Assembly: GCA_964023205.1 (NCBI GenBank)
Contig: OZ026837.1
Span: forward strand, 11,943,479-12,007,478
From: Lutraria lutraria
Taxonomy: Eukaryota > Mollusca > Bivalvia > Venerida > Mactridae
Length of the DNA: 64,000 nt
Direction: 5' to 3'
A program made the translations under genes and the position numbers. A model generated the notes under the pieces. That model was not told where the DNA came from and did no database searches. It saw only the letters and a program-made list of their open reading frames with translations. Shown one piece after another: positions 8,044-25,434 of this stretch (positions are counted from its first letter, which is position 1; each line of letters starts with the position of its first letter).

Positions 8044-8347
8044 AGTAGTAACCGGCGATACCCTGGTACCAATGCCTTCTGGTACCAATGCCTTCTGGTA
8101 CCCATACCTCCTGGTACCATATAGAATATAGAGTAAATAGATTAAGGTCGGTACCAGAAGTTTTACAAAATTGTGACAAATGGGGACAAATTGTGACAAA
8201 TTAGGACAAATTGTGACAAATTGGAAATCAAAAAATAATTTTAGGAATGTTCTGTGTGTGTATAGACTTAGACAATGAGAGAATTTTCTTTCGAAAAGAC
8301 ATGGTGGCCCTGAAAAGGGCCGTTGGTGGTCCTGAAAAGGACCGTTG
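8044..8347 (+). repeat. Polinton left terminal inverted repeat
   Basis: 304 bp, matching the reverse complement of 25131-25434 with no difference seen by eye. Outer part: four tandem copies of a GGTACC-containing unit of about 17 bp (8062-8118). Middle: five tandem 10-bp units of GTGACAAAT/GGGACAAAT type (8170-8221). Inner part: a GAAAGAA element and two histone-type stem-loops, which read as RNA signals on the minus strand. The TIR therefore doubles as the 3' end of the gene at 8375-9064. Confidence 0.97.
8283..8343 (-). terminator. Tandem histone-type 3' stem-loops plus U7-like element (left TIR)
   Basis: Read on the minus strand, 31 nt after the stop codon of the 8375-9064 gene, comes GGTCCT-TTTC-AGGACC (8343-8328), then ACCAAC, then GGCCCT-TTTC-AGGGCC followed by ACCA (8321-8302). 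A GAAAGAAAA purine run follows 12-13 nt later (about 8292-8283). Six-bp stem, UUUC loop, flanking AAC and ACCA, and a purine-rich downstream element are the defining parts of the replication-dependent histone mRNA 3' end (SLBP and U7 snRNP sites). The function is inferred; two stem-loops in a row are unusual. Confidence 0.85.
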
Positions 8348-8374
8348 GTTTCTTCATAGCTGTTAGTCGGATCT

Positions 8375-9064
8375 TCATTTCTTTATTTCTTTACCATACT
8401 TGCCCCGAGGTTGTTTCTCAAGATCATGTTTTCGTTTCTTCGTTTCTGTCATCTCCGGTTTCTTTTTGTCATGCTCCGGTTTCTTTTTCTCATGCTCATG
8501 TTTTCGTTTCTTTGAATCATACATAAACTGTACAGGTACAATCATTTCTTGTGGCTTAAACCGTACTTCTTGATTTTTCATGAGTCTGACCATCTCTTGC
8601 ATGACTTGATTCATCTGTACCATTTCTTCCCTGATACCTTGTAGAACAGACAATCCCGCTGTAGGCTTTGCATCACCCGTTGTATTAGACTGTGTTTTCG
8701 CCATAGGGGGTTGTGTATTCGTCATAGTGGGTTGTACATCTACCATAGGCTGTGTATTCGTCATAGTGGGTTGTACATCTACCATAGGCTGTGTATTCGT
8801 CATAGTGGGTTGTACATCTACCATGGGTTGTATCGGCTGTACATCTACCATGGGGGGTTGTACATCTACCATGGACTGTTGACTGTATTGGCTGTACAGT
8901 GGTTGACTGTATTGGCTGTACTGTGGCTGCCTATACTGTAGTTGACCGTACTTTGGCTGGTTGTACTTCGGCTGGTTGTAATGCATACCCGCATTCGGGT
9001 CTATCAACTCAGATGATTCTAGTGCTTCTCTCAATACATCGTATGGCATGTTGAAGGACTCCAT
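8375..9064 (-). CDS. Polinton left-end accessory protein, Tyr/Gln and MVDVQP repeats
   Basis: 229-residue protein of unknown function. I chose the ATG at 9064 because a TATA box (TATAAAT, 9107-9101) lies 43 bp upstream, matching the spacing at other promoters of this element; the longer open frame to 9253 would include the TATA box. Order of features: a short N-terminal helical part; a Tyr/Gln/Ser-rich tract (YSQYSQ, residues about 30-65); tandem 13-residue units of MVDVQPTMTNTQP type (about 65-120), seen in DNA as 39-bp repeats at 8710-8840; a predicted coiled coil (about 140-170); and a very basic Lys/His/Glu tail that may be a nuclear-localisation or nucleic-acid-binding region. It ends 31 nt before the histone-type stem-loops of the TIR. 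It could be a virion or regulatory protein; nothing decides. Confidence 0.75.
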   Translation of the reverse strand: MESFNMPYDVLREALESSELIDPNAGMHYNQPKYNQPKYGQLQYRQPQYSQYSQPLYSQYSQQSMVDVQPPMVDVQPIQPMVDVQPTMTNTQPMVDVQPTMTNTQPMVDVQPTMTNTQPPMAKTQSNTTGDAKPTAGLSVLQGIREEMVQMNQVMQEMVRLMKNQEVRFKPQEMIVPVQFMYDSKKRKHEHEKKKPEHDKKKPEMTETKKRKHDLEKQPRGKYGKEIKK

Positions 9065-9100
9065 GCTAGATAATGAAAAAATAGTGTCTGCGCCGGGGGT

Positions 9101-9107
9101 ATTTATA
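9101..9107 (-). promoter_or_regulatory. TATA box for the 8375-9064 gene
   Basis: TATAAAT on the minus strand, 43 bp before the chosen ATG. A TCAAGGTCA nuclear-receptor-like half-site is at about 9139-9147, a little further upstream. Confidence 0.7.
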
Positions 9108-9173
9108 CTTTTTGCCTGCACGCGCCAGTGTTCTATTAGGTCAAGGTCAATTGTGAGAAGTTTTTTTTTGTCT

Positions 9174-9262
9174 TTGTGTGACACTTCAAGTTTTTTTTTG
9201 TTTTTTTTTAATAAGTGTAACACTTCAAGTTTTTTTTTGTAGCAGTGTGGCACTTCAAGGTT
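9174..9262. repeat. Short tandem repeat with poly(T) tracts
   Basis: Three to four copies of a unit of about 25-30 bp: GTGTGACACTTCAAG followed by a T-tract. It lies upstream of the promoter of the left-end gene. Poly(dA:dT) tracts can exclude nucleosomes; a regulatory role is only a guess. Confidence 0.7.
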
Positions 9263-9334
9263 GTGTCAAATTCAAGGTTATATTGTATCAGTGTTATATT
9301 GTATCACTGTTATACTTTGTAGAAAAATACATCA

Positions 9335-9690
9335 TAAAATCACAGCAATTTGCATACATTTGTGGGAATACTTTGTACACATCATACAATCACAGCACTT
9401 TGTAGAAAATACATCATACTATCACAGCACTTATATTTGTAGGAAATGCTTTGTACACGTTATACTATCACAGCAATTTACAGACTGTACACTTAATATA
9501 TACTATCACAGCAATTTGAATACTGTACACTTAATATATACTATCACAGCACTTTGTGGGAAATACTTTGTACATCACAGCACTTTGCATACATTTGTGG
9601 GAAATACTTTGTACACATCATACAATCACAGCAATTTGCAGACTGTATACCTAATATAATATAATTACAGCACTTTGTAGGAAAAAATGT
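9335..9690. repeat. Array of ATCACAGCA(A/C)TTTG motifs, non-coding
   Basis: About nine irregularly spaced (30-50 bp) copies of a CACAGCACTTTG/CACAGCAATTTG core, interleaved with TTTGTACACATCATACAAT and CTGTACACTTAATATATACT segments. No credible protein is encoded. A repeated short core in a gene-poor part of a compact element looks like a cis-acting region (enhancer, origin or packaging signal); which of these is unknown. Confidence 0.75.
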
Positions 9691-9759
9691 TATAATGTTT
9701 ATAGAAAACTCTATAAAACGTACACTTACCCCACACCATCTACGCACCAGCATATTAAG

Positions 9760-9788
9760 TTTATAAATGACGTCATGATTTGACGTCA
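9760..9788 (-). promoter_or_regulatory. Two CRE sites adjoining a TATA box
   Basis: Two perfect TGACGTCA palindromes (9768-9775 and 9781-9788) lie immediately beside TTTATAAA (9759-9766). Read on the minus strand the order is CRE, CRE, TATA, as in CREB/ATF-driven viral promoters. No start codon follows within 60 bp; a minus-strand transcript would run into the 9335-9690 repeat array. The matching right-end gene has three related sites. Confidence 0.6.
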
Positions 9789-9852
9789 TCAAATATGAAT
9801 GTAAATATAGTAGTAAATAGTAAAGTATGATAATATTGACAATATGAGAGTG

Positions 9853-9911
9853 ATTCTTTCTGAATTGTATGGGGGCCCTGAAAAGGGCCGTTGGTGGTCC
9901 TGAAAAGGACC
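9853..9911 (-). terminator. Tandem histone-type 3' stem-loops plus U7-like element (internal)
   Basis: Read on the minus strand, 19 nt after the stop of the 9931-10254 gene: GGTCCT-TTTC-AGGACC (9911-9896), ACCAAC, GGCCCT-TTTC-AGGGCC (9889-9874). A CAGAAAGAATC purine element follows 11 nt later (about 9863-9853). The stem-loop pair is the same as in the TIRs, but the surrounding sequence differs, so the signal is conserved as a unit rather than as part of a longer duplication. Confidence 0.85.
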
Positions 9912-9930
9912 GTTGGTGCTTGTATGGGGA

Positions 9931-10254
9931 TTAATGGCGTTGACCGCATCTCCCCATACAAGCGGGACACCACTTGCCCCATTTCTGGACATCCTTGGGG
10001 TCCGGTGTAGGTTGGTAGAGGTTCGAAGGAACCTCTATTAACTCATCTTCCCAGTTCTCTGGGGTTGATTCTTGAGGGGTATCCCCCCAGTCCTCTTCCC
10101 CAGAGCTGACCACGACCTCCTCTGCAAACTGCTTTCCCTCTCTCAGGGTCTTGACCTCCAACCGCAGCTCTTCTAACTGCATCTCCAGCTGTTCTATATA
10201 CCGCCCTAAGGCAGCATATTTTCTTTTGATAATATTGACTGTACGCTGTGACAT
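9931..10254 (-). CDS. Small coiled-coil protein with Cys-rich C-terminus
   Basis: 107 residues, no family recognised. Residues 5-45 form a likely coiled coil (leucine/glutamate heptads around YIEQLEMQLEELRLEVKTL). Residues 47-80 are strongly acidic. The end is CPACMGRCGQRH, a C-x2-C-x3-C-x3-H group that could hold one zinc ion. The order coiled coil, linker, C-terminal cysteine cluster is shared with the right-end gene 24682-25119. It diverges from 10455-10682 across a 200-bp CCAAT-box promoter and ends just before a tandem histone-type stem-loop. I infer an S-phase-coupled accessory or regulatory protein. Confidence 0.75.
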   Translation of the reverse strand: MSQRTVNIIKRKYAALGRYIEQLEMQLEELRLEVKTLREGKQFAEEVVVSSGEEDWGDTPQESTPENWEDELIEVPSNLYQPTPDPKDVQKWGKWCPACMGRCGQRH

Positions 10255-10317
10255 CTTGATACAGAATGAAATTAGATCAAGGTAAGGTCACTCACTGACT
10301 ATGATACAAGGACTCTG

Positions 10318-10394
10318 ATTGGTCCATTTTAACAGTATTTCATTGGTCCATTTTAACGGTATTTCATTGGTCTATTTTACTGGCATTTCATTGG
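10318..10394. promoter_or_regulatory. Divergent promoter with four CCAAT boxes at 24-bp spacing
   Basis: ATTGG (CCAAT on the minus strand) occurs at 10318-10322, 10342-10346, 10366-10370 and 10390-10394, exactly 24 bp apart, within a diverged 24-bp tandem unit (ATTGGTCCATTTTAACGGTA type). It lies midway between the starts of 9931-10254 (minus) and 10455-10682 (plus). Repeated CCAAT boxes (NF-Y sites) are typical of divergent histone gene promoters and cell-cycle genes. No clear TATA box is visible on either side. Confidence 0.7.
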
Positions 10395-10454
10395 TCTGTT
10401 CTAGGTCAGTGTTTTTTTCGTGTTCCATAGCTCATTTATGTTTCATGATTCAAC

Positions 10455-10682
10455 ATGGGCAACTGCTTGAAAAGTTCTTCTGATGAACCTGATGAGTTAC
10501 AAGAAGATGTTTGGGTGGTCAAGATGGGTAATTTGTACCCAGACTTGTCTGAATTTCAAGATACTTGTGTTGTCAAGATGGATATCAAGATGGGTAATTT
10601 ATACCCTGACCTTGCCATGTATTATGATGAGGATTTGAGAGCCAACTATTGGCGATACCTATTTCTTGCAGAAATGCAATGA
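10455..10682 (+). CDS. Myristoylation-signal protein with two YPDL late-domain motifs
   Basis: 75 residues. The start MGNCLKS has Gly2 for N-myristoylation and Cys4 for palmitoylation. It equals, as I recall it, the first seven residues of the membrane-anchored ubiquitin ligase RNF11. A duplicated segment VKMGNLYPDL/IKMGNLYPDL (about residues 23-33 and 45-54) gives two YPDL motifs; YPxL is the ALIX-binding late domain, and YPDL is the form used by the p9 Gag domain of equine infectious anaemia virus. The remainder is acidic with an aromatic C-terminal helix. A lipid anchor with ESCRT-recruiting motifs is the make-up of a matrix/budding protein; this role in a Polinton is my inference. It ends 10 nt before a histone-type stem-loop. 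Confidence 0.8.
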   Translation: MGNCLKSSSDEPDELQEDVWVVKMGNLYPDLSEFQDTCVVKMDIKMGNLYPDLAMYYDEDLRANYWRYLFLAEMQ

Positions 10683-10692
10683 ATTACCCAAC

Positions 10693-10753
10693 GGCCCTTA
10701 TTAGGGCCACCATATGTGTTAGATTCGTTTTGTTTCTCAAGCAAAGACAAAAG
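10693..10753 (+). terminator. Histone-type 3' stem-loop after the YPDL gene
   Basis: CCAAC, then GGCCCT-TATT-AGGGCC (10693-10708), then ACCA, 10 nt after the stop codon. The stem is identical to the other copies. The loop is UAUU rather than UUUC but keeps uridines at positions 1 and 3. A purine-rich CAAGCAAAGACAAAAG (10738-10753) could be the downstream element, at about 30 nt further than usual. Only one stem-loop is present here. Confidence 0.7.
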
Positions 10754-10773
10754 CATATTACATTGTCTATCAT

Positions 10774-10779
10774 TTTATT
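10774..10779 (-). terminator. Poly(A) signal for the zinc-knuckle gene
   Basis: AATAAA on the minus strand, 129 nt past the stop of 10908-11258. The convergent YPDL gene ends in a histone-type stem-loop instead, so two neighbouring genes use two kinds of 3' end. Confidence 0.65.
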
Positions 10780-10907
10780 TTTGAAAACATTCTGAGTAAC
10801 AAAGTACAACAAAGTACAACACAATACAACTCACTTAGTCTCCAATTTAAGTCTATACACAATTGTCCAACACATTGTCCAACAAATTGTCCAACACATT
10901 GTCCGGA

Positions 10908-11258
10908 TTACACAAAGTCACTCACAGTTTTTGTTGGATTCTTTTTGTATTTACGTTTTTTCTTACTCTGTTCTGCGTCCTGTAGATCGACCTGTTCACC
11001 TTGTTTCTTAGGACAGTCTGCGATGAAATGTCCTTGTTCATGACAATAAAAACATTCATTGTTGAAGGGTTCCGTACAGCTGGTAGAATAATGTCCTTTC
11101 TTTCCACAACGATAACACTTGATATGATCCCATGTTACATTTTTCTGTCCACAGAGCTGATCCGCTAAGTTGTTAAGCTCTTTAATTTTTTTCTTTAATG
11201 AATACATCAAAGTTTGATCTCGGTTCTCTTCAACTTGGTTCATTTTAGGATCGCTCAT
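10908..11258 (-). CDS. Two-CCHC zinc-knuckle protein, nucleocapsid-like
   Basis: 116 residues. After a helical N-terminus (to about residue 40) come two zinc knuckles of the retroviral C-x2-C-x4-H-x4-C type: CYRCGKKGHYSTSC and CFYCHEQGHFIADC (about residues 48-61 and 69-82). A lysine-rich tail (SKKKRKYKKNP) follows, a likely nuclear-localisation or nucleic-acid-binding signal. CCHC knuckles bind single-stranded RNA or DNA; in retroelements they form the nucleocapsid. The start is set by a TATA box 41 bp upstream (11299-11293). It is divergent from PolB and convergent with the YPDL gene, and has its own AATAAA. CCHC proteins are not part of the Polinton core set, so this is probably captured from a retroelement or a CNBP-type host gene. 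Confidence 0.85.
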   Translation of the reverse strand: MSDPKMNQVEENRDQTLMYSLKKKIKELNNLADQLCGQKNVTWDHIKCYRCGKKGHYSTSCTEPFNNECFYCHEQGHFIADCPKKQGEQVDLQDAEQSKKKRKYKKNPTKTVSDFV

Positions 11259-11372
11259 GTTGAAATGATAAAAAACGGACGGAGCGTACGTCTTTTATAG
11301 AGTGTCACGCGTTATGACCTTGAACTTGATACAAGTATAAAAAAACGGCGGAGAAGTTTTAAGATCATAATC
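11259..11372. promoter_or_regulatory. Divergent promoter, zinc-knuckle gene and PolB
   Basis: TATAAAA on the minus strand (11299-11293) lies 41 bp before the zinc-knuckle ATG, and TATAAAAA on the plus strand (11336-11343) lies 37 bp before the PolB ATG. Between them is TGACCTTGAACTTGA (about 11314-11328), containing a TCAAGGTCA nuclear-receptor-type site on the minus strand. Confidence 0.75.
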
Positions 11373-14300
11373 ATGTCAGATACCGACAGTACTAGTGGTG
11401 AGGATGAACCTCCAACTAAACGAAGCAAGTTTGAGCCTGTGCGCGACTATTATGACATACAGTCACGCATGGAAAGAAAGTCAAGGAAATTTAAGACTCA
11501 ATCTAGAGTATATGATGTGACATTTCAGCCGTATAATCAATCGTTTGAATTTACAAACAGGTTGTTTAATGATATGATGGATCAGCTCTACAAGAGATGT
11601 GAAGTGAGATCGAATGATCGAGTTCGAGTATCTATTCTACATCCTGATTTGGACTTTGGAATACATGTTCCGTTTAATAGGGCATCTCTTATTAGTGGAG
11701 ATACGGTGTTGGATGAAATTGAACGTGTGGCACAAAGTAACCGTCAATTTAAAATTCATGATGGGGCGGCACAGATGGAAATTACGCATATTGCTATGCC
11801 ACAGGGATCCGGAAAGAAAACGTTTAAAGCACCAAACTTATTCAGTATGCGAAAGTCAAAGACAAGTGTTGTGTGTATTGACAATAGTAAGGACTCTATG
11901 TGTTTAGCTAGATCGATTGTAGTGGGACAGTGCAAAGTGGATGAAAATCAAACCCCGCAATGGAAAAAACGATGGAATCTAATACGCCAGTCTAAGAAAA
12001 AGCTTCAAAAATACGAAGCTGAAGCATTATTAAAGCAAGTGGGTATTTCATCGGATCAGTCGTGTGGTATAGAAGAATACCAAAAACTACAGGACTATCT
12101 CTATCCCAGCTATGTGATTAAAATTCATCCACAACATTATGGAAGTGAATTGTTATTCAAACCACCTGCTCTGACTGAAAAAAGTCGTGTGATTCATATC
12201 TTTCACCATGATAATCATTATGACTGTATCGTATCCATTACCGGATTTCTCGGACGGGGTTATTATTGTGAATGGTGTGATATCGGTTATGATCACCGTG
12301 AAGGACACCAGTGTAGCCATATTTGTCAGTGTTATGCTCACACCCTGTGCCCAGCAGGGCAATCTATAAGATGTCCGGATTGTCGTCGCCTATTCCAGAG
12401 TCAGGCATGTTTTGACAATCATAAAACAAAAACGGGAAAACAACGTAAAACCATTTGTGAATCCGTATGGAATTGTAAGAAATGTGGGCATAAGGTGATT
12501 GGAACGAAACGGAGTCACGCTTGCCCAGGGACAAAGAAATGCAGGTGTTGTAAAGCCATAGTAGGCCCAGATCACGACTGTTACATTCCAACATATGAAC
12601 CACCCGATAGAAAACAACCACCAGTACCATTCATCTTTTTTGATTTTGAATGTCGTTTTGATTCTGGAGAACATATCCCTAATTTTTGTGTGGCTCAACG
12701 TGCTTGTGGTGACTGTATGTGTAAGTCAGTGAAAGCTCCATGTGAGTATTGTGAAGAGGTGAATGAAGCCAGACAAATGACATTCCGTGGTGAAAATACG
12801 TTACAACAATTCTGTACTTGGCTATTCCTCCCTACCCATCGAGGATCGACAGTGATAGCCCACAATGCTCAAGGCTATGACGCTCAGTTTATTCTTAGAT
12901 ATGTGGTCACTCAGGGGACGGCGAAACCCCAGTTGATTATGAATGGTAGTAAAATCATTCAATTGAGAGTGCATGGAATACGCATGATTGACTCCCTCAG
13001 TTTCCTGAGTATGCCTCTCTCCTATTTTCCCAATACATTTGGACTGACCGAGTTAGCCAAAGGATGGTTTCCATTCTATGCAAACACCTTGGCGTATCAA
13101 AATTATGTGGGACCTTATTTGCCGCTACACTTTTACAAACCGGATAGTATGAACCCAGAGCGACGTGAAGAGTTTTTAACCTGGTACAATGAAAGAAAAG
13201 GAGACGTATTTGATTTTCAAAAGGAAATGGAGAAATACTGTCAATCGGATGTGGACATTTTAAGACGCGGGTGTGGAGAATTTCGTCAACAATTATTGGA
13301 AAGTGATCAAATAGATCCATTTACTGAAGCTACAACGTTAGCTCAAGTGTGTAACAAAGCCTGGCGCAAAAATTCCATGCCACCTCATAGTTTAGCCGTG
13401 ATTTCGGATGCCGGGTATCCCAATAAAACCCGGTATTCCATGAAAGGCATACGTTGGCTACAAATGATGGCTGTCACCGAAGAGATACATATTCGGCATG
13501 CCTTGAATAACAAAGGCGAAGTCAAAATTGGACCTTATTACGTGGATGGCTATTGTCAAGAGACCAACACCGTGTATGAATTCATGGGATGTTGGTACCA
13601 TGGGTGCCCCACCTGTTTTCCTAACCGAAGTACCATCAATCCGTATACTTTGAGAACCATGCAACAGGCCTATCACGATACGTATAAGCGACTGGAGTCT
13701 TTGAAAGAACAGGGGTATCCTGTTGTGGTCATGTGGGAATGTGAATTTGATCAGCGTTGTCAAAAGGATCCTGCCTATAAGACAAGAGTGGAACGATTCT
13801 ATCATGGTCAAGGCCCGATTCAACCCAGGGAAGCTTTGTTCGGAGGTCGTACGAATGCCATCCGACTGTATCATGAAGTAGACAACGACCAAGAAATCAA
13901 ATATGTGGATATTTGTTCTCTCTATCCGTATGTGAACAAGTACAGGGCTTATCCGATAGGCCATCCAGTGATCATGAGTCAAGAACAAATTGATCAACAG
14001 CATATTGAGAAATACAAAGGACTGATTAAATGCCGTGTTCTACCCCCGCAAGATTTATGGATGCCTGTCTTACCCATACACTGTAATAGTAAAATGGTGT
14101 TTACGCTATGCCGTACCTGTGCTGAGAAGGAGATGGATTATTGTACACATTCCCCGTATGAACGGTTCTTGTATGGCACATGGACTCATGTTGAATTGGC
14201 TAAAGCTATTGCTTTAGGCTATCAAGTATCAAAAGTGTATCATGTATGGCACTGGGATGAATGGAGTACGGACGTCTATCGGCAATACATTGACAAATAC

Positions 14301-15164
14301 TTGAAAATGAAACAAGAGGCTAGTGGATATCCTCCAGGGGTGGATACGGAAGAGGCTCAAGATAAATTTAAACAGGATTATTTTGAAGCAGAAGGAATTC
14401 GTTTGCAACAGGTGGAGAAAAATCCAGGAAAACGAGCTTTTGCCAAAACCATGCTGAATTGTCTCTGGGGTAAAAATGCTCAAACTAACCTCTTGCCTAA
14501 AACAGAGTATGTTCATCGATTGGACCAGTTCTACGGAATACTGAACGATCCTAAAAAGTCTGTGAAATATGCAGAGTGTTTTGATCATGATGAATTCATG
14601 TTAATGAATTATACTGATGAATCGGACAAAGCAGACCCTCATTCATCAGCCAATCCTGTGGTGGCTTCATTTGTGACGGCTTATGCTCGATTAGAACTGT
14701 ACAAAGTGCTTGAACCTCTAGGAAAGAGAGTACTGTATTTTGACACAGACAGTTGTATGTACATTCATGACCCTGATGGCTATAATGTTCCTATTATCTC
14801 CAGTCGATTGGGAAAATGGACAGATGAGGTACCAAAGGGTCGTATTGTGAGATATGTCGCTTTAGGTCCAAAGAACTATGGCTATGAATACATTGAAAAC
14901 GGTGAACTCCATCAAAAATGCAAAGTGAAAGGCATTACGTTAGACTACAATGCCACTCAACAAGTGAATTTCAATACGATGGTGGATTGTGTGAAAGACA
15001 GACATAATTATTCGACCGTAGTTGAATATGCTTCTCGGATTAAACGTCATAAGGACAGAACCGTGACCAGTGAGAAACAAGTCAAAACATTTCGTTCGGT
15101 ATATACCAAACGTATTGTGGTCGAGAATCATATGACTGTGCCTTATGGTTATCTACATGACTGA
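11373..15164 (+). CDS. polB: Protein-primed family B DNA polymerase
   Basis: 1263 residues, the Polinton replicative polymerase expected to copy the element from protein-primed ends. Exonuclease motifs: Exo I FFDFE (about residue 424), Exo II HNAQGYDAQF (about 497), Exo III YCQSDVDI (about 622). Polymerase motifs: A DICSLYP (about 846), B KTMLNCLWGK (about 1024), C DTDS (about 1124). All catalytic acidic residues are present. The N-terminal third carries an OTU-like cysteine-protease-fold remnant (DSMCLARS about 174; HHDNHYDCI about 280) followed by a cysteine/histidine-rich zinc-binding stretch (about 297-408). The start is fixed by a TATA box 37 bp upstream. The frame is intact. Confidence 0.97.
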   Translation: MSDTDSTSGEDEPPTKRSKFEPVRDYYDIQSRMERKSRKFKTQSRVYDVTFQPYNQSFEFTNRLFNDMMDQLYKRCEVRSNDRVRVSILHPDLDFGIHVPFNRASLISGDTVLDEIERVAQSNRQFKIHDGAAQMEITHIAMPQGSGKKTFKAPNLFSMRKSKTSVVCIDNSKDSMCLARSIVVGQCKVDENQTPQWKKRWNLIRQSKKKLQKYEAEALLKQVGISSDQSCGIEEYQKLQDYLYPSYVIKIHPQHYGSELLFKPPALTEKSRVIHIFHHDNHYDCIVSITGFLGRGYYCEWCDIGYDHREGHQCSHICQCYAHTLCPAGQSIRCPDCRRLFQSQACFDNHKTKTGKQRKTICESVWNCKKCGHKVIGTKRSHACPGTKKCRCCKAIVGPDHDCYIPTYEPPDRKQPPVPFIFFDFECRFDSGEHIPNFCVAQRACGDCMCKSVKAPCEYCEEVNEARQMTFRGENTLQQFCTWLFLPTHRGSTVIAHNAQGYDAQFILRYVVTQGTAKPQLIMNGSKIIQLRVHGIRMIDSLSFLSMPLSYFPNTFGLTELAKGWFPFYANTLAYQNYVGPYLPLHFYKPDSMNPERREEFLTWYNERKGDVFDFQKEMEKYCQSDVDILRRGCGEFRQQLLESDQIDPFTEATTLAQVCNKAWRKNSMPPHSLAVISDAGYPNKTRYSMKGIRWLQMMAVTEEIHIRHALNNKGEVKIGPYYVDGYCQETNTVYEFMGCWYHGCPTCFPNRSTINPYTLRTMQQAYHDTYKRLESLKEQGYPVVVMWECEFDQRCQKDPAYKTRVERFYHGQGPIQPREALFGGRTNAIRLYHEVDNDQEIKYVDICSLYPYVNKYRAYPIGHPVIMSQEQIDQQHIEKYKGLIKCRVLPPQDLWMPVLPIHCNSKMVFTLCRTCAEKEMDYCTHSPYERFLYGTWTHVELAKAIALGYQVSKVYHVWHWDEWSTDVYRQYIDKYLKMKQEASGYPPGVDTEEAQDKFKQDYFEAEGIRLQQVEKNPGKRAFAKTMLNCLWGKNAQTNLLPKTEYVHRLDQFYGILNDPKKSVKYAECFDHDEFMLMNYTDESDKADPHSSANPVVASFVTAYARLELYKVLEPLGKRVLYFDTDSCMYIHDPDGYNVPIISSRLGKWTDEVPKGRIVRYVALGPKNYGYEYIENGELHQKCKVKGITLDYNATQQVNFNTMVDCVKDRHNYSTVVEYASRIKRHKDRTVTSEKQVKTFRSVYTKRIVVENHMTVPYGYLHD

Positions 15165-15856: not shown

Positions 15857-16116
15857 GTTTATATTACATTTTGGACTTTGAGCTGTATACGGATACGTTA
15901 TACAGTATTGTACAAGATGACCTTGTCAAGGTCAAGGACATTCGCGCGTGGATTCTGAACCCTCACACGTTTGAACTATTTAGACAGATGATTCGTGATG
16001 CTATGATCAGTGCACACTTAGACTTGAAAGCTATCCATCGAGACGATTGGAATACTTATGTATGTAACGATAGAGTGATTCACACGATTCAAGAATGGAA
16101 CAGTTTGATATTATGA
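15829..16116 (+). CDS. Small protein, paralogue of the next gene
   Basis: 95 residues from the second ATG (an upstream in-frame ATG at 15808 would lengthen the overlap). No known family. The C-terminal half has the pattern P-x-x-FE...M...DL...DW...V-x-ND-x-V, which is also seen in the 16095-16457 product, so the two are probably tandem duplicates. It overlaps the upstream gene by about 28 nt and the downstream gene by 22 nt in a different frame, typical of compact viral coding. Confidence 0.6.
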   Translation: MVKPSRRFISLYYILDFELYTDTLYSIVQDDLVKVKDIRAWILNPHTFELFRQMIRDAMISAHLDLKAIHRDDWNTYVCNDRVIHTIQEWNSLIL

Positions 16117-16457
16117 ACCATACCCTGTTGAGAAAAGCATTGGTATTTGCTTATCGTATGAAGATACCTGAAGGTCATCATTCTCTGGAATGGATTCGAC
16201 AACAGTTGAGTACACCAGACATGTTTGAAGAAATGAAACATGGACTTCATGTGATGAATTCATTTTATAAACAATCAGTACCCATGGACTTGAGTGAAAC
16301 GGATTGGTTCAAACAGGTGGTGAACAATGACTCTGTGTTAACATTTCTGAGTCAATTTGGACATTCAGAATGTGTGTTTGAATTTTCTGACAAACTGTTG
16401 TTACCATTACATGACATGTGTTGTTCTTGTTGTGATTATTCTTGTACTCATACATAA
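16095..16457 (+). CDS. Small helical protein with Cys-rich tail
   Basis: 120 residues, function unknown. The middle shares P-x-x-FE...M...DL...DW...V-x-ND-x-V with the 15829-16116 product. The tail DMCCSCCDYSCTHT has five cysteines within about ten residues and could bind metal or be palmitoylated. It is followed by an AATAAATAAA poly(A) signal 13-22 nt after the stop, marking the end of the first rightward gene cluster. Confidence 0.65.
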   Translation: MEQFDIMNHTLLRKALVFAYRMKIPEGHHSLEWIRQQLSTPDMFEEMKHGLHVMNSFYKQSVPMDLSETDWFKQVVNNDSVLTFLSQFGHSECVFEFSDKLLLPLHDMCCSCCDYSCTHT

Positions 16458-16519: not shown

Positions 16520-17167
16520 ATGGAGTCCAGTTTACTTTTTAAGCATCCTTGCAATATGTTTATCTCAGGCCCTAGTGGCTCTGGTAAAACACAATTTGTA
16601 AAAAAGGTGTTGGAATACATATCAGATTTGTTTCAAGTAGTACCAGAGCGTATTGTATGGTGTTACAAAGAATGGCAAGTAGCCTATGCACAATTACAAG
16701 AACAAGAACCTAGTATTCGGTTCATACAGGGGATACCTGACGAGGATGAAGAGATAGTAGAGGATACATCCATTCCTCATTTAATTATATTTGATGACAT
16801 GCTTGGTGATAAAGATGAAGAGAAAATCAAATTATGGTTTACACGAAAAGGTCACCATCGTAATGCTAGTGTGATCTACATTACACAAAACATGTTTCAA
16901 CAATCGAAAGCCAGTCGTACCCTGAGTTTAAATGCACATTACATGATCTTATTTCAAAACACAAGAGATAAAGGACAAATCAAAGTGTTGGCGAATCAAA
17001 TTCAATTGCCACACTTGTTACCCGCTTATCAAGATGCTATCTCTACACCTCATGGGTATTTAATGATTGACTTTCACCCTCAAACACCAGACAGTTATCG
17101 GTTAAGAACAGATATTTTTCATCACTGGATCACTGGAGAAAAACGTGGGCCAGTTGTGTATATATAA
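16520..17167 (+). CDS. FtsK/HerA-type genome-packaging ATPase
   Basis: 215 residues, the usual size for Polinton A32-like packaging ATPases. Walker A GPSGSGKT is at residues 17-24; Walker B LIIFDDML at about 88-95, with the acidic pair; a following VIYITQN strand ends in the polar sensor residue typical of the family. It is expected to pump element DNA into capsids. The frame is intact. The last codons overlap the TATA box of the next gene. Confidence 0.93.
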   Translation: MESSLLFKHPCNMFISGPSGSGKTQFVKKVLEYISDLFQVVPERIVWCYKEWQVAYAQLQEQEPSIRFIQGIPDEDEEIVEDTSIPHLIIFDDMLGDKDEEKIKLWFTRKGHHRNASVIYITQNMFQQSKASRTLSLNAHYMILFQNTRDKGQIKVLANQIQLPHLLPAYQDAISTPHGYLMIDFHPQTPDSYRLRTDIFHHWITGEKRGPVVYI

Positions 17168-17168: not shown

Positions 17169-17201
17169 CATCGTTTACTCATATAAGATCATTCAGTCAT
17201 C

Positions 17202-18352: not shown

Positions 18353-18388
18353 GCTGTGAAGAAGTAAAAACAGGTATTATTTGACATA

Positions 18389-18760: not shown

Positions 18761-19503
18761 AGAAAATGGCTATCGTCCCATTCAAAATGCTAGAAGAGAT
18801 GAATCGATGGAAAACAGAACAACGACCACGTTTACCTCCTCCCCCGCAAGTCAGTCAAACATCCGATTTACAGAAACAAATGGGAGACGTATTACAAAAT
18901 GAATCGTTGTCTGAATCAGAAAAAGCACAACACTATGGGCAAGTCTTGCAAAGGTTTCAACTGTCTCATCAAAAAGCACGTGAACCGGCTACTCTGGCTG
19001 CACCAGTTGCACCGGCTGCACCGGTTGTTCCAGCTGCTCAAGGTGCACAAGGGGCACAAGCGGCTCCTGCTACATTGACGGATCGGATTCTTGAAAGTGT
19101 TCCTACTACCATGCGTCGAAAAACTCAGCTTTTATTACACTTTCTACAAAATCATCCCCACATGTCATGGAATGATCATGGGATGTTGGAATATCATGGA
19201 AAACCAATACAAGGATCCAACATTATTGATTTGGTCAATGATGTCATACGTCATAGAAAAGGGTCGGAGCCTAGAGGATGGGAACAGTTTTCTAGTGGAC
19301 TAAGAGATGTCAATGTACCACAAGAAGTGATAGGAAATAAACGGAGATGGTCATGGATGCAAAAAGCAGACGATTCGGAGGAAGATGATGAATTTGATAG
19401 TTTTGTTGAGTCTCGTTCACCTATAAGTAAACGGATGAAAGCAGAACCTATAAGTAAACCTGTCAAACAGATGAAAGCAGAACCTAAGTGGGAAGCCTAC
19501 TAG
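18757..19503 (+). CDS. Conserved Polinton-type protein of unknown function
   Basis: 248 residues from the ATG in ATGA (18757); the in-frame ATG at 18766 (MAIVPFKMLEEM) is equally likely. Parts: a short N-terminal helix; a proline-rich patch (LPPPPQ, about 25-31); an AP/AQ-rich linker (about 78-105); and a folded domain (about 107-200) with WNDHGMLEYHG, GSNIIDLVNDV, GWEQF and NVPQEVIGNKRRW. The tail is acidic then basic. I believe similar proteins occur next to integrase in other animal Polintons but cannot name the family; a minor virion protein is plausible. The last 16 nt overlap the integrase frame. Confidence 0.7.
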   Translation: MKKMAIVPFKMLEEMNRWKTEQRPRLPPPPQVSQTSDLQKQMGDVLQNESLSESEKAQHYGQVLQRFQLSHQKAREPATLAAPVAPAAPVVPAAQGAQGAQAAPATLTDRILESVPTTMRRKTQLLLHFLQNHPHMSWNDHGMLEYHGKPIQGSNIIDLVNDVIRHRKGSEPRGWEQFSSGLRDVNVPQEVIGNKRRWSWMQKADDSEEDDEFDSFVESRSPISKRMKAEPISKPVKQMKAEPKWEAY

Positions 19504-20582
19504 ACAACATGAACAAAAAGGTAGACAGTCTGTTACATCAGATTTATTATGATCCCCATCATCCGGCTGGTTTTGGTGGGGTAGAACGTCTTACTACAGC
19601 AGCTCGAACTCAACTGAAATCCATCACGCCAAGTCAAGTGCGATCCTGGTTGAAGGGACAAAAGACCTATACCCTGCACAAACCTATCCGTAGGGCATTC
19701 TCGAGACGGAAAACGATTGTGGGTGGTATTGATCATCAATGGCAAGCTGATTTGGCAGACATGCAATCCTTGGCTCAGTACAACACCCCTTATCGATATT
19801 TGTTGTGTGTCATTGACGTGTTTTCAAAATATGCTTGGGTCGTTCCCCTCAAGGATAAAACGGGGCTCACATTGGTGGAAGCGTTTCGCTCTATTCTTAA
19901 AACGAGACAACCTAAAGCGTTGCAAACCGATAAAGGAACAGAATTCAAGAATCAAAGGTTTCAACAGTTTTTAGACAAAGTAGGGATTCATTATTTTACG
20001 ACTGAAAACCCAGAAACGAAGGCTAGTATAGTGGAACGTTTTCAACGGACCTTAAAATCACGCATGTGGAAATACTTTACGCATCATAAAACACGAAGGT
20101 ATATTCAGGTATTGTCTGATCTCGTGCATGCCTATAATCATCGTGTTCATCGTAGTATACAAATGGCACCCGTATCCGTGAATGAGAATAACGAATCTCA
20201 AGTGGCCTTGACCTTGTATGGAAAATCAAGAAAAAAAGCGTCGACGACCCTTCATGTGGGAGATATTGTTCGTATCAATAAAACAAAACGTACATTTGAT
20301 AAAGGTTATCTACCCAACTGGACCACTGAACTGTTTAAAGTGATCCAAGTCAAAAAGACCTCTCCTGCTACTGTGAAATTGACTGATTTAGACGGAGAAC
20401 CCATATTAGGTTCGTTTTATTTCTCTGAAGTACAGGTTATAAAAGATGATGCTATCTATGAAATTGAATCAGTGCTCGCACATCGCCAGAGTAAGGTAGA
20501 CGGAAGACGAGAAATTAAAGTGCATTGGAAAGGCTATCCTTCGAAATTTGACAGTTGGATTCCCGAATCCCATCTCGTTTGA
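19488..20582 (+). CDS. int: Retroviral-type integrase with C-terminal chromodomain
   Basis: 364 residues (from 19488; an in-frame ATG at 19509 is an alternative). rve-family catalytic core with D in WQADLADM (about residue 87), D in LQTDKGTEF (about 147) and E in SIVERF (about 183), giving D,D-35-E. An SH3-like DNA-binding region follows (VGDIVRI, about 258). The C-terminus (about 323-364) is a chromodomain: YEIESVL...IKVHWKGY...DSWIPESHL, with the aromatic cage residues. It inserts the element and makes the 6-bp duplication. The chromodomain may target methylated-histone chromatin, as in chromoviruses. The frame is intact. Confidence 0.96.
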   Translation: MGSLLDNMNKKVDSLLHQIYYDPHHPAGFGGVERLTTAARTQLKSITPSQVRSWLKGQKTYTLHKPIRRAFSRRKTIVGGIDHQWQADLADMQSLAQYNTPYRYLLCVIDVFSKYAWVVPLKDKTGLTLVEAFRSILKTRQPKALQTDKGTEFKNQRFQQFLDKVGIHYFTTENPETKASIVERFQRTLKSRMWKYFTHHKTRRYIQVLSDLVHAYNHRVHRSIQMAPVSVNENNESQVALTLYGKSRKKASTTLHVGDIVRINKTKRTFDKGYLPNWTTELFKVIQVKKTSPATVKLTDLDGEPILGSFYFSEVQVIKDDAIYEIESVLAHRQSKVDGRREIKVHWKGYPSKFDSWIPESHLV

Positions 20583-20601
20583 ACTGGTTAATAAATACAT
20601 C

Positions 20602-20847
20602 ATGTCTCAAACCGATACGGCCAGTGTGGTAGTGACTGCCTCAGAGCAAACCAAATTGTGTGAACCCAAAAATAAGGTCACTTTTTTGTCACAAATTGTA
20701 GTGGTATTTATTATTATTACCGTATCGCTATTTAATTTGTGTTTTCAACGACCCGATCGGGAATTGTGGCTTCTGCTTTTAAGTAGTTCTCTAGGTTATA
20801 TTCTACCGAATCCCTCCTTGAAATTCAATAAACCTAAATCAACATGA
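20602..20847 (+). CDS. Small two-helix membrane protein
   Basis: 81 residues from the ATG after the integrase stop (an earlier in-frame ATG at 20548 lies inside the integrase gene and is less likely). Two hydrophobic segments (about 30-48, QIVVVFIIITVSLFNLCF; about 54-70, LWLLLLSSSLGYIL) are joined by a charged loop QRPDRE, forming a membrane hairpin. The C-terminal PNPSLKFNKPK is conserved in spirit with small proteins I associate with Polinton capsid clusters. Role unknown. The stop overlaps the next ATG as ATGA. Confidence 0.75.
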   Translation: MSQTDTASVVVTASEQTKLCEPKNKVTFLSQIVVVFIIITVSLFNLCFQRPDRELWLLLLSSSLGYILPNPSLKFNKPKST

Positions 20848-21686: not shown

Positions 21687-22048
21687 TACCTACTTACCAA
21701 GGTCAACCTCGACAATATGGACACGGACTTGGATCCATGTTTAAGAAAGCCATGAAAAGAATTATGCCTTTACTGAATCCATTTGTGAAATCTGGAGTTC
21801 ACACCTTGAAAAAAGAAGGACTCCAGCAAGGAAAAGCCGCTATGAAAGATATCTTGACAGGATCAAACGTTAAACAAGTAATACGAAAACGTGGAGCCTC
21901 TGTATTAAAAGATGTGGGTGAATCCTTGTTACGTGCCGTGGCCAGCCCTAAAAGACGTATAAAGAGCAAACCAGTCAAGAAAAGACCTCATTCGAAACTT
22001 CATCATCGCCGAGTTAAGCAGGCCAGACCTCTTGATATTTTCGATTAA
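21683..22048 (+). CDS. pX-like basic virion protein
   Basis: 121 residues, pI clearly high. The N-terminus GQPRQYGHGLGSMF and following helix (KKAMKRIMPLLNPF) resemble the amphipathic start of Polinton PX / adenovirus pVI-pX-type proteins. The middle is glycine/lysine-punctuated; the tail (about 88-112) is strongly Lys/Arg/His-rich and should bind DNA or act as a nuclear signal. GLGSMF (about 14-19) is a possible adenain cleavage site. It lies between penton and major capsid genes, the standard position; the gap to the capsid ATG is 2 nt. Confidence 0.75.
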   Translation: MIPTYQGQPRQYGHGLGSMFKKAMKRIMPLLNPFVKSGVHTLKKEGLQQGKAAMKDILTGSNVKQVIRKRGASVLKDVGESLLRAVASPKRRIKSKPVKKRPHSKLHHRRVKQARPLDIFD

Positions 22049-22050
22049 TC

Positions 22051-23348
22051 ATGATGCAACACGGTTCCTGTGAATGTAGTAAGACAGAGTTGGATGTGTC
22101 TGTTGTGCCACCTACCATGACAGCCATGCAAGAAGGTCAATGGACTGAGCATTATCCCATTTCTGCTCTGGACAATAATGCTCCGATTGAATTTGTGATT
22201 CCTGCACAGACAGAAAAATGGACAGATCTGAATCAATCTTACCTGTACCTAAAACTCAAAATTATACAGGCAGATGGTACAGACCTAGCGGCCGACAGTG
22301 AAATTGCTACCGTCAACAATTTCTTTCACAGCATGTTCTCAAGCATTGATGTGTACCTGAATAATAAACTGATCACCAGCAATGCGGACACGTATGGCTA
22401 TCGGGCATACATAGAAAATTTACTCTCCTTCACCTCAAGCTGTAAAGACACTCAGCTTCAGGCGCTAGAGTTATGGGCTGAAGACACCGCTGGTCATATG
22501 CTCGAAAAAGTACATGACGGGGATAACAAGGGCTATGGTAAGAGACGTGCTCGTGTCCATCAAAGTCGTGTGGTGGAACTATGTGGACGGCTTCATTTGG
22601 ATCTGATGATGCAAGATAAATATTTACCCAATGGTATGGAAATACGCTTAAGACTAAACAAAGCGTCACCTCAATTCTGTCTCATGAGTACTTCACCGGC
22701 TAAAATCAAGTTTCTAGAAGCAGGATTCAATGTAAGAACAGTAGATTTACTGCCAGTGGTAGCCAATCAACTCAATCAACAGATTGCTCAACATAACATG
22801 AAAATCCCCATCCGACGAACTGAAGTAAAAACATTTACGATTCCTAACGGTCAACGATCCAAGATTGAAGATCATTTATTTCAAGGTCAATTGCCAAAAC
22901 GGCTTATCATCGGTATGGTAAGAAATGGAGACATGAATGGAGACATGGCTACCAACCCCTTTGAGTTCCGTCATTTTACACTGAATCATCTAGAAGTCAG
23001 CATTGACGGAAAAAGTATTCATAACAAAGCGTTTCAACCCAATTTTGAAACGGGAGAAGTTCTAAGATCCTACATGTCACTCTATCAAGCGACAGGGCTC
23101 TTGGTCTCAATCGTTCATTTGGATTGAGCATGAATGATTATCGGAACGGATACACACTCTGGGGGTTGGACTTGACAGCAGATCAAGGTTGCGAGGAAGG
23201 TCAACTCCATCCTATAAAAACGGGCAATCTGAGATTGGAATTTCACTTTGGAACAGCACTTGCACAAGCCATCAACGTGATTGTATTTGCGGAATACGAC
23301 AATCAAATTGAAATCAATCAATTCAGAGAAGTGCTTCTAGATTATTAA
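22051..23348 (+). pseudogene. Major capsid protein, frame broken near 23.10 kb
   Basis: Double-jelly-roll major capsid protein of Polintons. The first frame runs 22051-23127 (358 codons) and shows QGQWTEHYP-like start motifs, LYLKLKI, FFHSMFSSIDVYLN and YGYRAYIENLLSF. The C-terminal part (NDYRNGYTLWGLDL through INQFREVLLDY) continues in another frame to the stop at 23348. The shift falls at about 23098-23106, in a short T/G run; nothing else is disrupted. Either this copy is inactivated, or one base is missing in the assembly. No slippery heptamer with a pseudoknot is evident, so programmed shifting is unlikely. Confidence 0.85.
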
Positions 23349-23362
23349 TCTAGATTATTAAG

Positions 23363-23826
23363 ATGGAAGACATGGATATTGAACACCTGGAAAAAGGACA
23401 AGATTACGAAATGAAGTTATTGGCGTATCCTTGTTGTACAAGTTCAAAGACGGACTTTTTACAAGAGTGCTTGAATCATCACGTCACAGAAGCACTCCAA
23501 TCTTTAATTTATAATCAAGTGCATAAAGACTGTTATGGTTGTCGAGTGAATCATCCTAGTCAAGTACAACATGTACTCTGCTTATACACGAATACGGAAG
23601 AGTGGACAGAACTTTACATTCAAAAAGCGATTCACGTTTGGACGTGTTCAAGGTCATGGAAAAGTGGTATCCTGAATTAGTGACCTTGACCGATAGTGAA
23701 AAAGGAGACGCGTGTCGATTATGGATTCAATTTAAAGAAGAACTCACTCAGAATCAGTTCATTGATCAGTGGATCAGTGTTTGGGCTGAACGTGTCAACA
23801 GAAATTGGCATTATGGAGACGAATGA
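23363..23826 (+). pseudogene. Cys/His-rich small protein, frame changes near 23.64 kb
   Basis: The frame 23363-23680 encodes a protein with CC (about 24), CYGCRVNHPSQVQH (about 56-69) and then a short tail ending prematurely. A second frame to 23826 continues with an amphipathic helical part (VMEKWYPELVTL...). I recall CYGC-x-V-x-HPSQ-x-x-H as a signature of small proteins in animal Polintons, so the two are probably one gene with a frameshift at about 23630-23645. The C/H cluster suggests a zinc-binding protein; function unknown. The end overlaps the protease start by 13 nt. Confidence 0.6.
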
Positions 23827-24403
23827 ACTACAATACCTATTAGATCATTCACCGTTATTAAAACCACTACACGCTCGTGTTTGTGCCAAAGATCAATTAC
23901 CTTCAGAGAAACCGCATGACGTGAAAGCCTATATTGTGAATACCCATAACGGAAATCAACCTGGAGAACACTGGGTGGCTCTTTATTTAAAAGACAATAA
24001 AGCAGTGTACTTTGATTCCTACGGATTACCACCTTTCGAAGAGATTCTATCCTTTGTGAAAAAACATGCCAACAAAACTTATCTGTGGAATGCCATGAGA
24101 ATACAAGGCGATATGTTACCGGTGTGTGGTGTGTATTGTCTATTCGCTTTGGATTTTATCTCACGTGAATGTGACTTGAACCAGATACTGTTAACCCGAT
24201 TCAAACCGGACATGTATGGAAAAAATGACACTTATGTGACGCATTGGTTTCAACAATATTATGGTACTTATTACATGCATGCTCAATATGTGAATAAATG
24301 TGGACAAAAGTGTTGTGCTCAACGTAACTCTAGACCAGAAGGTCACAGACGTTTGTATCATAGTATCATACATAGAAATACAACTCTTTATGGTGATCAT
24401 TAA
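23814..24403 (+). CDS. Adenain-like (Ulp1-fold) capsid maturation protease
   Basis: 196 residues. Catalytic triad and oxyanion residues of the C48/C5 clan are visible: His in GEHWVAL (about 53), Asp in YFDSYG (about 68), Gln in RIQGDM (about 98) and Cys in LPVCGVYC (about 105). It is expected to cleave capsid, pX-like and core proteins during maturation, and to be activated on DNA or by a peptide cofactor. I chose the ATG at 23814 because a longer in-frame upstream start would overlap the whole of the previous gene. The C-terminal 40 residues are Cys/Arg/His-rich. A poly(A) signal follows at 24465. Confidence 0.93.
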
Positions 24404-24464
24404 ATGTAAACAATGTTTCATAAAATGTTTCATGTAGTTTCTTGTTACTGTTTCTTGTTACAAA

Positions 24465-24470
24465 AATAAA
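24465..24470 (+). terminator. Poly(A) signal of the capsid-protease cluster
   Basis: AATAAA, 62 nt after the protease stop. It is the first clear signal downstream of 16479, so many of the genes from 16520 to 24403 may share this 3' end. Confidence 0.7.
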
Positions 24471-24551
24471 AGTTTAGAAAAACTGAAACTAGGTGTCTGT
24501 TGTCTTTTTTCTAAGTTCATAAAAAATCAAGCTCCGCACATGCATCGGCGC

Positions 24552-24606
24552 GTGACGCCATCCAACCCTAGGGTGACGTCATCCAAGCAATATGACGTCA
24601 TCCAAC
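24552..24606 (+). promoter_or_regulatory. Three CRE-type repeats before the right-end gene
   Basis: TGACGCCATCCAAC, TGACGTCATCCAAG and TGACGTCATCCAAC follow each other at about 20-bp spacing. The last two contain the perfect CREB/ATF site TGACGTCA. They lie 75-130 bp before the chosen start of 24682-25119 and mirror the CRE pair at 9768-9788 near the other end of the element. TAAAATA at about 24628 is the nearest TATA-like word. Confidence 0.7.
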
Positions 24607-24681
24607 CACGAGAGTGGGTGGCGTAGTAAAATACTCCGTCTTACAATGCCTCATTTCATTCTGAGAACTCAAACACTCAAG

Positions 24682-25119
24682 ATGGAGGCTTTATTCAATG
24701 AACTCAAAACAGCAAAACAACTGACTGAAAAACAGAGTAGGGTATGGCGTTCAATCAGTCGCTTAGCGGCTAGCATTGTTAGAAAAAGGGAACGTGATCT
24801 TCAAACCATTGGTGAGACTTTGAATACCATTGAATCCAATCGATTTCATCATAGAGAAGAATTATCTCAAATGCGAGAGCAATTTCGAGATCAAATCAGA
24901 GAAAGACAGCGAGATGCTCGGGAACGAACGGCGAATAGACAACGGGAACAACAACAAGAAGAAGAGCATTGGCGCTCTACCGCTCAAGTTGAGTACACGG
25001 AACAACCACCAGAACAGGAATGGTCCTGTGGGGATCTAACATGCAGGCTCTGCTATCCCCCACCAGACTGCAAATGTGAACTATGTACCCAACCAGATCA
25101 GTCAGCAAACACGGTTTAA
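24682..25119 (+). CDS. Right-end coiled-coil protein with C-terminal Cys cluster
   Basis: 145 residues from the ATG at 24682 (in-frame ATGs at 24592 and 24646 are possible, but the first lies in the CRE repeats). Residues about 10-100 are an Arg/Glu/Gln-rich coiled coil (RERQRDARERTANRQREQQQ). The end holds C-x4-C-x2-C-x5-C-x-C-x2-C (CGDLTCRLC...CKCELC), a likely zinc site. The same order of coiled coil then cysteine cluster is seen in 9931-10254 at the opposite end. Function unknown. The stop is 15 nt before the tandem histone-type stem-loops in the right TIR. Confidence 0.75.
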   Translation: MEALFNELKTAKQLTEKQSRVWRSISRLAASIVRKRERDLQTIGETLNTIESNRFHHREELSQMREQFRDQIRERQRDARERTANRQREQQQEEEHWRSTAQVEYTEQPPEQEWSCGDLTCRLCYPPPDCKCELCTQPDQSANTV

Positions 25120-25130
25120 AAAAAAACTAT

Positions 25131-25434
25131 CAACGGTCCTTTTCAGGACCACCAACGGCCCTTTTCAGGGCCACCATGTCTTTTCGAAAGAAAATTCTCT
25201 CATTGTCTAAGTCTATACACACACAGAACATTCCTAAAATTATTTTTTGATTTCCAATTTGTCACAATTTGTCCTAATTTGTCACAATTTGTCCCCATTT
25301 GTCACAATTTTGTAAAACTTCTGGTACCGACCTTAATCTATTTACTCTATATTCTATATGGTACCAGGAGGTATGGGTACCAGAAGGCATTGGTACCAGA
25401 AGGCATTGGTACCAGGGTATCGCCGGTTACTACT
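25131..25434 (-). repeat. Polinton right terminal inverted repeat
   Basis: Reverse complement of 8044-8347, 304 bp, ending GGTTACTACT before the TATAAG duplication. It carries the same stem-loop pair, GAAAGAA element, five 10-bp GTGACAAAT-type units and GGTACC units. Confidence 0.97.
25135..25194 (+). terminator. Tandem histone-type 3' stem-loops plus U7-like element (right TIR)
   Basis: GGTCCT-TTTC-AGGACC (25135-25150), ACCAAC, GGCCCT-TTTC-AGGGCC (25157-25172), ACCA, and CGAAAGAAAA (25185-25194) after 12 nt. It begins 15 nt after the stop of 24682-25119. CAAC before and ACCA after the second stem fit the metazoan histone mRNA consensus at nearly every position. Confidence 0.87.

Follow-up and report, generated by a model that had tools for sequence, protein, structure and literature searches.

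The 64,000-nucleotide stretch of the genome of the bivalve Lutraria lutraria analysed here (contig OZ026837.1, positions 11,943,479 to 12,007,478 of the forward strand; hereafter the window) carries an integrated Polinton at window positions 8044-25434. The element is bounded by terminal inverted repeats (TIRs) of 304 nucleotides (nt) that are 100 % identical, with the 6-bp target site duplication TATAAG on both outer sides, and it encodes a DNA polymerase B (PolB; PF03175), an rve integrase with a chromodomain (PF00665 and PF00385) and an A32-type ATPase (PF04665), as a Polinton should. Four small genes near its ends, here called g1, g2, g3 and gLast, are each followed by hairpins of the histone mRNA type. 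There are seven of these, all with a 6-bp stem and a 4-nt loop and all in sense orientation, forming a tandem pair behind g1, g2 and gLast and a single hairpin behind g3. A first-pass annotation of the window had listed four stem-loops; these are real, and the upstream GGTCCT-TTTC-AGGACC hairpin of each of the three pairs has to be added to them. The features are as follows, with bit scores from a model of the host histone loops that is described below.

8044-8347, left TIR, 304 nt, 100 % complementary to 25131-25434; the stem-loops of g1 lie at its inner end
8286-8292, minus strand, purine element of g1, GAAAGAA 13 nt past the loop; a possible histone downstream element, with few changes in other copies
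8306-8321, minus strand, second loop of g1, GGCCCT-TTTC-AGGGCC, 53 nt after the stop
8328-8343, minus strand, upstream loop of g1, GGTCCT-TTTC-AGGACC, 31 nt after the stop, 31.8 bits
8375-9064, minus strand, g1, small gene of 229 aa, Q/Y/P-rich, no Pfam family; stem-loop pair at its end
9874-9889, minus strand, second loop of g2, GGCCCT-TTTC-AGGGCC, 41 nt after the stop; GAAAGAA 13 nt on
9896-9911, minus strand, upstream loop of g2, GGTCCT-TTTC-AGGACC, 19 nt after the stop, 31.8 bits
9931-10254, minus strand, g2, small gene of 107 aa; stem-loop pair at its end; two relatives found (P0243 and P0244)
10255-10454, no strand, divergent promoter region of g2 and g3; contains four CCAAT boxes spaced by 24 nt
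10455-10682, plus strand, g3, small gene of 75 aa with the N-terminus MGNCLKS; single stem-loop at its end
10693-10708, plus strand, loop of g3, GGCCCT-TATT-AGGGCC, 10 nt after the stop, 31.0 bits
24682-25119, plus strand, gLast, 145 aa counted from the ATG used; stem-loop pair at its end and TGACGTCA motifs upstream
25131-25434, right TIR; the stem-loops of gLast lie at its inner end
25135-25150, plus strand, upstream loop of gLast, GGTCCT-TTTC-AGGACC, 15 nt after the stop, 32.1 bits
25157-25172, plus strand, second loop of gLast, GGCCCT-TTTC-AGGGCC, 37 nt after the stop; GAAAGAA 13 nt on

The distances of 31, 19, 10 and 15 nt from stop codon to stem given by the first-pass annotation are the right figures, but at g1, g2 and gLast they lead to the GGTCCT loop, and the GGCCCT loop to which they had been assigned lies at 53, 41 and 37 nt. 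Of the flanks claimed there, CAAC was found before all seven loops and ACCA after six, CCCA following the loop at 9874-9889. The GAAAGAA element, placed 11-13 nt after the loop in three genes, is indeed present at g1, g2 and gLast, at a uniform spacing of 13 nt and after the second loop. The purine element of histone genes is expected about 10-14 nt past the loop. U occupies loop positions 1 and 3 in all seven loops, as is the rule for the histone type. According to PMC10388802, the minimal SLBP site consists of the loop, two 5' adenines and one 3' adenine; the 5' AA (before the C) is present in all seven loops and the 3' A in six. The predicted folds consist of these very hairpins and, downstream of them, a weak helix (z -4.3 for gLast, -3.7 for g2, -1.8 for g3), and no such stem-loop arose in 100 dinucleotide shuffles of the window.

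The four gene ends had been presented as four cases. All four are of the histone type, but they are not independent, as the loops at 8306 and 25157 belong to the TIR and are the same sequence present twice, and 9854-9917 is 89 % identical to 8286-8349. The window therefore holds about two independent cases, and judged by these likenesses only the g3 loop at 10693 is clearly separate from the other sites.

With the Rfam model of the metazoan histone 3' end (RF00032), which had been proposed as a check, the result was divided: 8280-8326 (minus strand) and 25152-25198 (plus strand) reached 35.8 bits each, over the gathering score of 34, and 9849-9894 (minus strand) and 10688-10733 (plus strand) stayed under it with 31.7 and 31.0 bits. 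The next-best family in the same scan of the window had an E of 1.4. For comparison, a tandem histone cluster was located in the host genome (728.5 Mb) with PF00125, on the same chromosome as the window. One fetched repeat unit contains H3, H4, H2B, H2A and H1, each with a single loop 28-31 nt after the stop, and these loops gave 30.5-34.5 bits with RF00032, only H4 exceeding the gathering score. As four of five host histone genes fall below it, the gathering score is not a useful yardstick for this animal, and by this comparison the Polinton loops are as good as real host histone loops. The likeness extends to the letters: the core-histone loops are GGCCCT-TTTT-AGGGCC, one loop base away from the second Polinton loop and likewise with AAC before the stem, and the H1 loop GGTCCT-TTTC-AGGACC has the same 16-mer, GGTCCTTTTCAGGACC, as the upstream Polinton loop. 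The sequences downstream of the host histone loops themselves varied.

When the five host histone loops were made into a model of their own, it matched each of the four gene ends once (in the pairs, at the upstream loop) and also matched once in L029, a contig of another lineage described below. These matches had 31.0-32.1 bits and E about 1e-8, with no other match at E up to 1 in 100,535 bases including the window. The host also has a gene for the SLBP RNA-binding domain (PF15247, two matches 0.5 kb apart with 34.5 and 60.9 bits, cut-off 27).

The loops are present throughout a large family of copies. The strict flanked pattern CAAMGGYYCTTWTNAGRRCCACC had 1030 + 1040 = 2070 matches in the genome, while its reversed control had 0. 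By spacing and order, the 100 listed matches formed 17 sets of 16-17 kb, like the Polinton. Six sites were present in 15 of these sets and five in the other 2, and at least 9 of the 17 include one of the capsid matches listed. Extrapolation from the 2070 matches leads to an estimated 350 family copies or so, the product of a recent large expansion in this genome. A genome-wide RF00032 search served only to find copies (best 75 of 131,090 candidates, 44 matches listed, five of them in a host tandem array discussed below); it overlooked the real histone cluster and gave a result, below cut-off, in 1 of 14 control genomes.

In the other copies that were fetched, 63 distinct gene ends have at least one perfect loop, and in 58 of them a frame of at least 65 aa has its stop no more than 100 nt before the loop. 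The remaining five (in L031/L042, L034, L049, L055/L068 and L067) lack such a frame, as expected for decayed or cut copies. Two perfect loops were found at 39 of the 63 ends and one at 24; as these ends were found via their loops, the count is no measure of loop loss. A less biased sample was formed by 16 left ends, from the window and 15 fetched copies, that were selected solely through the TIR site. Among these, g2 has one or more intact loops in 16/16 and g3 has its loop intact in 15/16; the loops not intact were the second one of g2 in L063 and that of g3 in L067. Loop number and spacing also differ among copies: L049 and L050 have two loops 41 nt apart with ACAAACGGTTTAAAAAA between them, and L045 and L051 have one detected loop there.

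In three copies (L064, L067 and L068) the second g2 loop has U-A for C-G, with both sides changed. When 16 loops (15 distinct) were aligned, pair 3 had C-G exchanged for U-A, with both sides changed, in five of the distinct rows and was never changed on one side, four pairs were invariant, and the sole unpaired cell belonged to the gene of the host array (L039). The percentage paired and the covariation score both exceeded all 500 shuffles. Since the copies are young and related, the counts in this alignment are not independent events. Variation in the loop core was pi 0.005 at g1 and 0.000 at g3, the least varied stretch against 0.015-0.447 elsewhere, a comparison biased by patterns that demanded an intact loop.

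Outside this family, a capsid profile search of GTDB genome contigs yielded five contigs with a capsid relative (L026-L030). One of them, L029 (CALIZB010000033.1), is filed in a Bacteroidia metagenome-assembled genome and is presumably eukaryotic contamination of it; it has a PolB, an integrase with a chromodomain, and a capsid 29 % identical to the query. It contains one RF00032 match (35.8 bits; fold z -3.5). The stop of a C2H2 zinc-finger frame precedes the loop of this match by 28 nt, and the run AAAAAAGAGA comes 12 nt after the loop. The strict pattern found nothing in the genomes of L026, L027, L029 and L030 (0/4); the L029 loop cannot match it because AAAC precedes the stem. When the L029 capsid was compared with the host genome, 94 of the best 98 of 414 candidates scored were like the window family and four differed. 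The advice of the first-pass annotation to look for loops in related elements thus met with a loop behind a stop in L029 and with none in these four divergent relics and the four other capsid contigs, in the stretches read. Stops interrupt three of the four divergent capsid matches and the neighbouring frames look broken; the relics being decayed, their negatives show no more than that the trait is not a general one. A claim of histone-type ends should not extend to 'Polintons' as a whole.

Viral collections were also examined. IMG/VR had 0 matches to the strict pattern, and no Polinton was found there by PolB alone, nor by capsid and PolB alignments; in a phage collection PolB had three weak matches. 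A loose pattern picked out 25 stretches of IMG/VR, none with both CAAC before and ACC after, and these were judged to be chance. The best of them (L024, also judged chance) is 100 nt away from the closest open stretch listed on its upstream side, which has 70 codons from stop to stop.

The element itself seems to form its 3' ends in two ways. Neither AATAAA nor ATTAAA was found at any of the four stem-loop genes in the 160 nt that follow the stop, and AATAAA was absent from the 150 nt past all 95 distinct loops of the other fetched copies. Four other window genes have AATAAA, and the ATPase is the only ATTAAA case. Nine further window genes have no stem-loop and no poly(A) signal, and may share downstream ends. 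The genes that provide the contrast, together with PolB and the capsid gene, are listed here.

10908-11258, CCHC gene, AATAAA 128 nt after the stop
11373-15164, plus strand, DNA polymerase B, PF03175 with E 1.4e-38; neither stem-loop nor poly(A) signal within 160 nt downstream
16095-16457, plus strand, gene with AATAAA 12 nt past the stop
16520-17167, plus strand, A32-type packaging ATPase, PF04665 with E 1.1e-8; ATTAAA 120 nt after the stop
19488-20582, plus strand, rve integrase with chromodomain, PF00665 and PF00385; AATAAA 7 nt past the stop
22051-23127, plus strand, probable major capsid protein, by its homologues; a 358-aa frame, shorter than in most close relatives
23696-24403, protease candidate, named by eye, no Pfam match; AATAAA 61 nt after the stop

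The elements of the gene ends, their positions and orientation, their retention across copies, their likeness to host histone ends and the host SLBP gene form the sequence-level basis of our interpretation. On this basis it is likely that the four Polinton genes carry functional, SLBP-dependent and non-polyadenylated 3' ends of the histone type. The proposal of a metazoan histone-type end on these genes thus held up well, with support from RF00032 and the host-histone model, the near-identical host loops, the sense orientation, the nearby stop at 4/4 genes and 58/63 other ends, the compensatory C-G/U-A change, L029 and the host SLBP gene. The Polinton would borrow the 3'-end pathway of the host's replication-dependent histone mRNAs for four small accessory genes near its ends. 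Host SLBP would bind one or both loops while the transcript is still nascent. The cut just past the loop would be made by the cleavage machinery (U7 snRNP, probably, with the purine element 13 nt downstream as its guide), leaving an mRNA that ends in a stem-loop without a poly(A) tail. The remaining genes, including the integrase, appear to use AATAAA polyadenylation. The accessory proteins would then be made mainly in S phase, when SLBP is abundant and host replication may favour the element too. Both the coupling to S phase and the use of U7 are inferred from the known histone pathway. More broadly, it seems likely that some animal Polintons run two kinds of mRNA, polyadenylated ones and accessory ones with a histone stem-loop, SLBP- and probably U7-processed, which ties accessory expression to S phase, and that the trait exists in at least two distant lineages on different genes. 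A loop on different genes in at least two distant Polinton lineages must have been gained more than once, or be old.

Several observations weigh against this interpretation. The loop at 9874 lacks the 3' adenine, and g3 has neither GAAAGAA nor a UUUC loop, its loop being UAUU, so that the purine-rich downstream element is confined to three of the four genes. One loop per mRNA is the rule in all five host histone genes, and three of the four window genes have two. No U7 snRNA was found in the host genome with RF00066 (best 65 of 192,230 candidates scored), a search that had no match in the control genomes either, and the U7 pattern CTTTN{0,7}AATTTGTCTAG had 43 matches against 42 in the control, 16 of the 43 being inspected and none showing a convincing U7 hairpin; these searches are weak. 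The host-loop model, applied to the 25 IMG/VR chance loci, which had been picked beforehand by a loop-like pattern, gave 39.1 bits to L024 and at most 27.4 otherwise, so that function has to be judged by position and context and not by the bit score alone. Of the six stem pairs only one covaries, and pairs with a two-sided change (1) are no more numerous than in shuffles. As the family expanded recently, likeness among its copies is weak evidence of selection. RF00032 had no match in L026, L027, L028 and L030, contigs of 3.6-11.8 kb in which the relevant ends may be missing, and neither RF00032 nor the host model had one in the 45.8 kb of flanks of the four divergent relics (5.4 kb upstream of each and 8 kb downstream of three). 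In L029, AATAAA occurs 70 nt past the loop.

This last signal would suit transcripts in which the loops bind SLBP for translation or stability and the 3' end is made by cleavage and polyadenylation further on, giving an mRNA with both loop and tail. Polyadenylated histone transcripts that retain the loop do exist. The four window genes and the 95 loops of other copies, all without the signal at such distances, speak against it, and we regard this explanation as improbable. It is still less probable, indeed barely plausible, that the inverted repeats act as DNA, as cruciforms or as places where proteins bind the ends for replication, integration or packaging. The inner ends of the two TIRs do hold four of the seven loops, but the other three (9874, 9896 and 10693) are internal, on both strands, in sense and just past stops, and the asymmetric loop TTTC and the flanks CAAC and ACCA fit an RNA signal, while a palindromic DNA site needs neither. 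Equally far-fetched, in our estimation, is a single capture of histone 3' untranslated region pieces that were spread as passive passengers by recent amplification. The many similar copies, the H1-like loop with its suggestion of host origin, and the TIRs of the window copy, identical and hence young, would agree with it, as would the g2 loop core, where variation (pi 0.046) is not below that of the adjoining stretches (0.014 and 0.013). However, loops stand behind four different genes on both strands, the compensatory swap was kept, the loop cores of g1 and g3 are the least varied, with the bias given above, and the L029 loop sits on another gene.

Histone-type 3' ends are a textbook mark of replication-dependent histone genes. 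The Polinton ends share with the metazoan histone 3' end the 6-bp stem and 4-nt loop, the A-rich 5' flank, the ACC 3' flank, a position some tens of nt behind the stop, the purine element 13 nt from the loop (in three of four genes), the lack of a nearby AATAAA and near-identical loops in the host; they differ in standing behind accessory genes instead of histones and often as a tandem pair. The flank is CCAAC where the canonical histone form is CCAAA, and the host core histones have AAC as well. With described Polintons/Mavericks and adintoviruses the element shares TIRs, the 6-bp target site duplication, PolB, the rve integrase with chromodomain, the A32-type ATPase and probably the capsid protein, and unlike them it has histone-type 3' ends.

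The SLBP/U7 pathway, including its S-phase coupling, is summarised in PMC7786107 and PMC6827988. These also report, for SARS-CoV-2, a predicted RF00032 match that has 14.7 bits and falls within nsp3 coding sequence (PMC7786107) and, for a viroid, a hairpin whose loop is identical to that of histone mRNAs (PMC6827988); neither this match nor the viroid loop, which concerns a plant host and the loop alone, is an mRNA 3' end behind a stop, in contrast to the Polinton loops. Our literature search found no description of histone-type ends in Polintons or adintoviruses. In a term search of two Polinton-related preprints, stem-loop and polyadenylation were absent from PMC11071296 and histone-like viral proteins were present in it, and none of the terms occurred in PMC11071308. 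Within the literature searched, no virus or DNA transposon has an earlier record of a histone-type mRNA 3' end, and this would be the first. If true, a parasite couples a chosen set of genes to the cell cycle via RNA processing, RNA-seq with poly(A) selection could miss these Polinton transcripts, and depletion of SLBP or U7 would be a direct test of the timing of Polinton activity.

The host tandem array mentioned above (L039-L041, parts of G000:C12:22875500-22919000) consists of units of about 1.5 kb with a 109-aa non-histone gene (MPSRIQSLDKRF...) without a Pfam family over cut-off. It was tried as the histone cluster and rejected, the array gene being a different one. An imperfect histone-type loop, GGCCCT-TTTC-AGAGCC, lies 39 nt after its stop and is followed by a purine run. 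It thus resembles the Polinton genes in having this loop and run on a non-histone gene, and differs in being a host tandem array with an imperfect stem and in having no sequence relation to the Polinton genes that we could see.

Some minor features of the element may be added. The name of the capsid gene is our assumption from likeness to adintovirus and Polinton capsids; among its relatives, those with names are bivalve records (Mercenaria, oysters) and many others are unnamed contigs, and the relatives of PolB include a record named Rhodactis coral adintovirus. Most copies among the matches listed have a capsid frame of 437 codons compared to the 358 aa of the window copy, which may be defective. 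CCAAT boxes such as those between g2 and g3 are common in histone promoters. The start of g3, MGNCLKS, resembles an N-myristoylation/palmitoylation signal, and the product is possibly a membrane-attached accessory protein. The words AATTTGTC/ATTTGTCC or ATTGTCC are repeated near element ends (window 25245-25310 and 10860-10910; L029 40-260), and those of the window resemble, perhaps by chance, a U7-type Sm site (AATTTGTC). CRE-like TGACGTCA motifs occur both at window 24560-24610, upstream of gLast, and at L029 930-1010, upstream of the zinc-finger gene.

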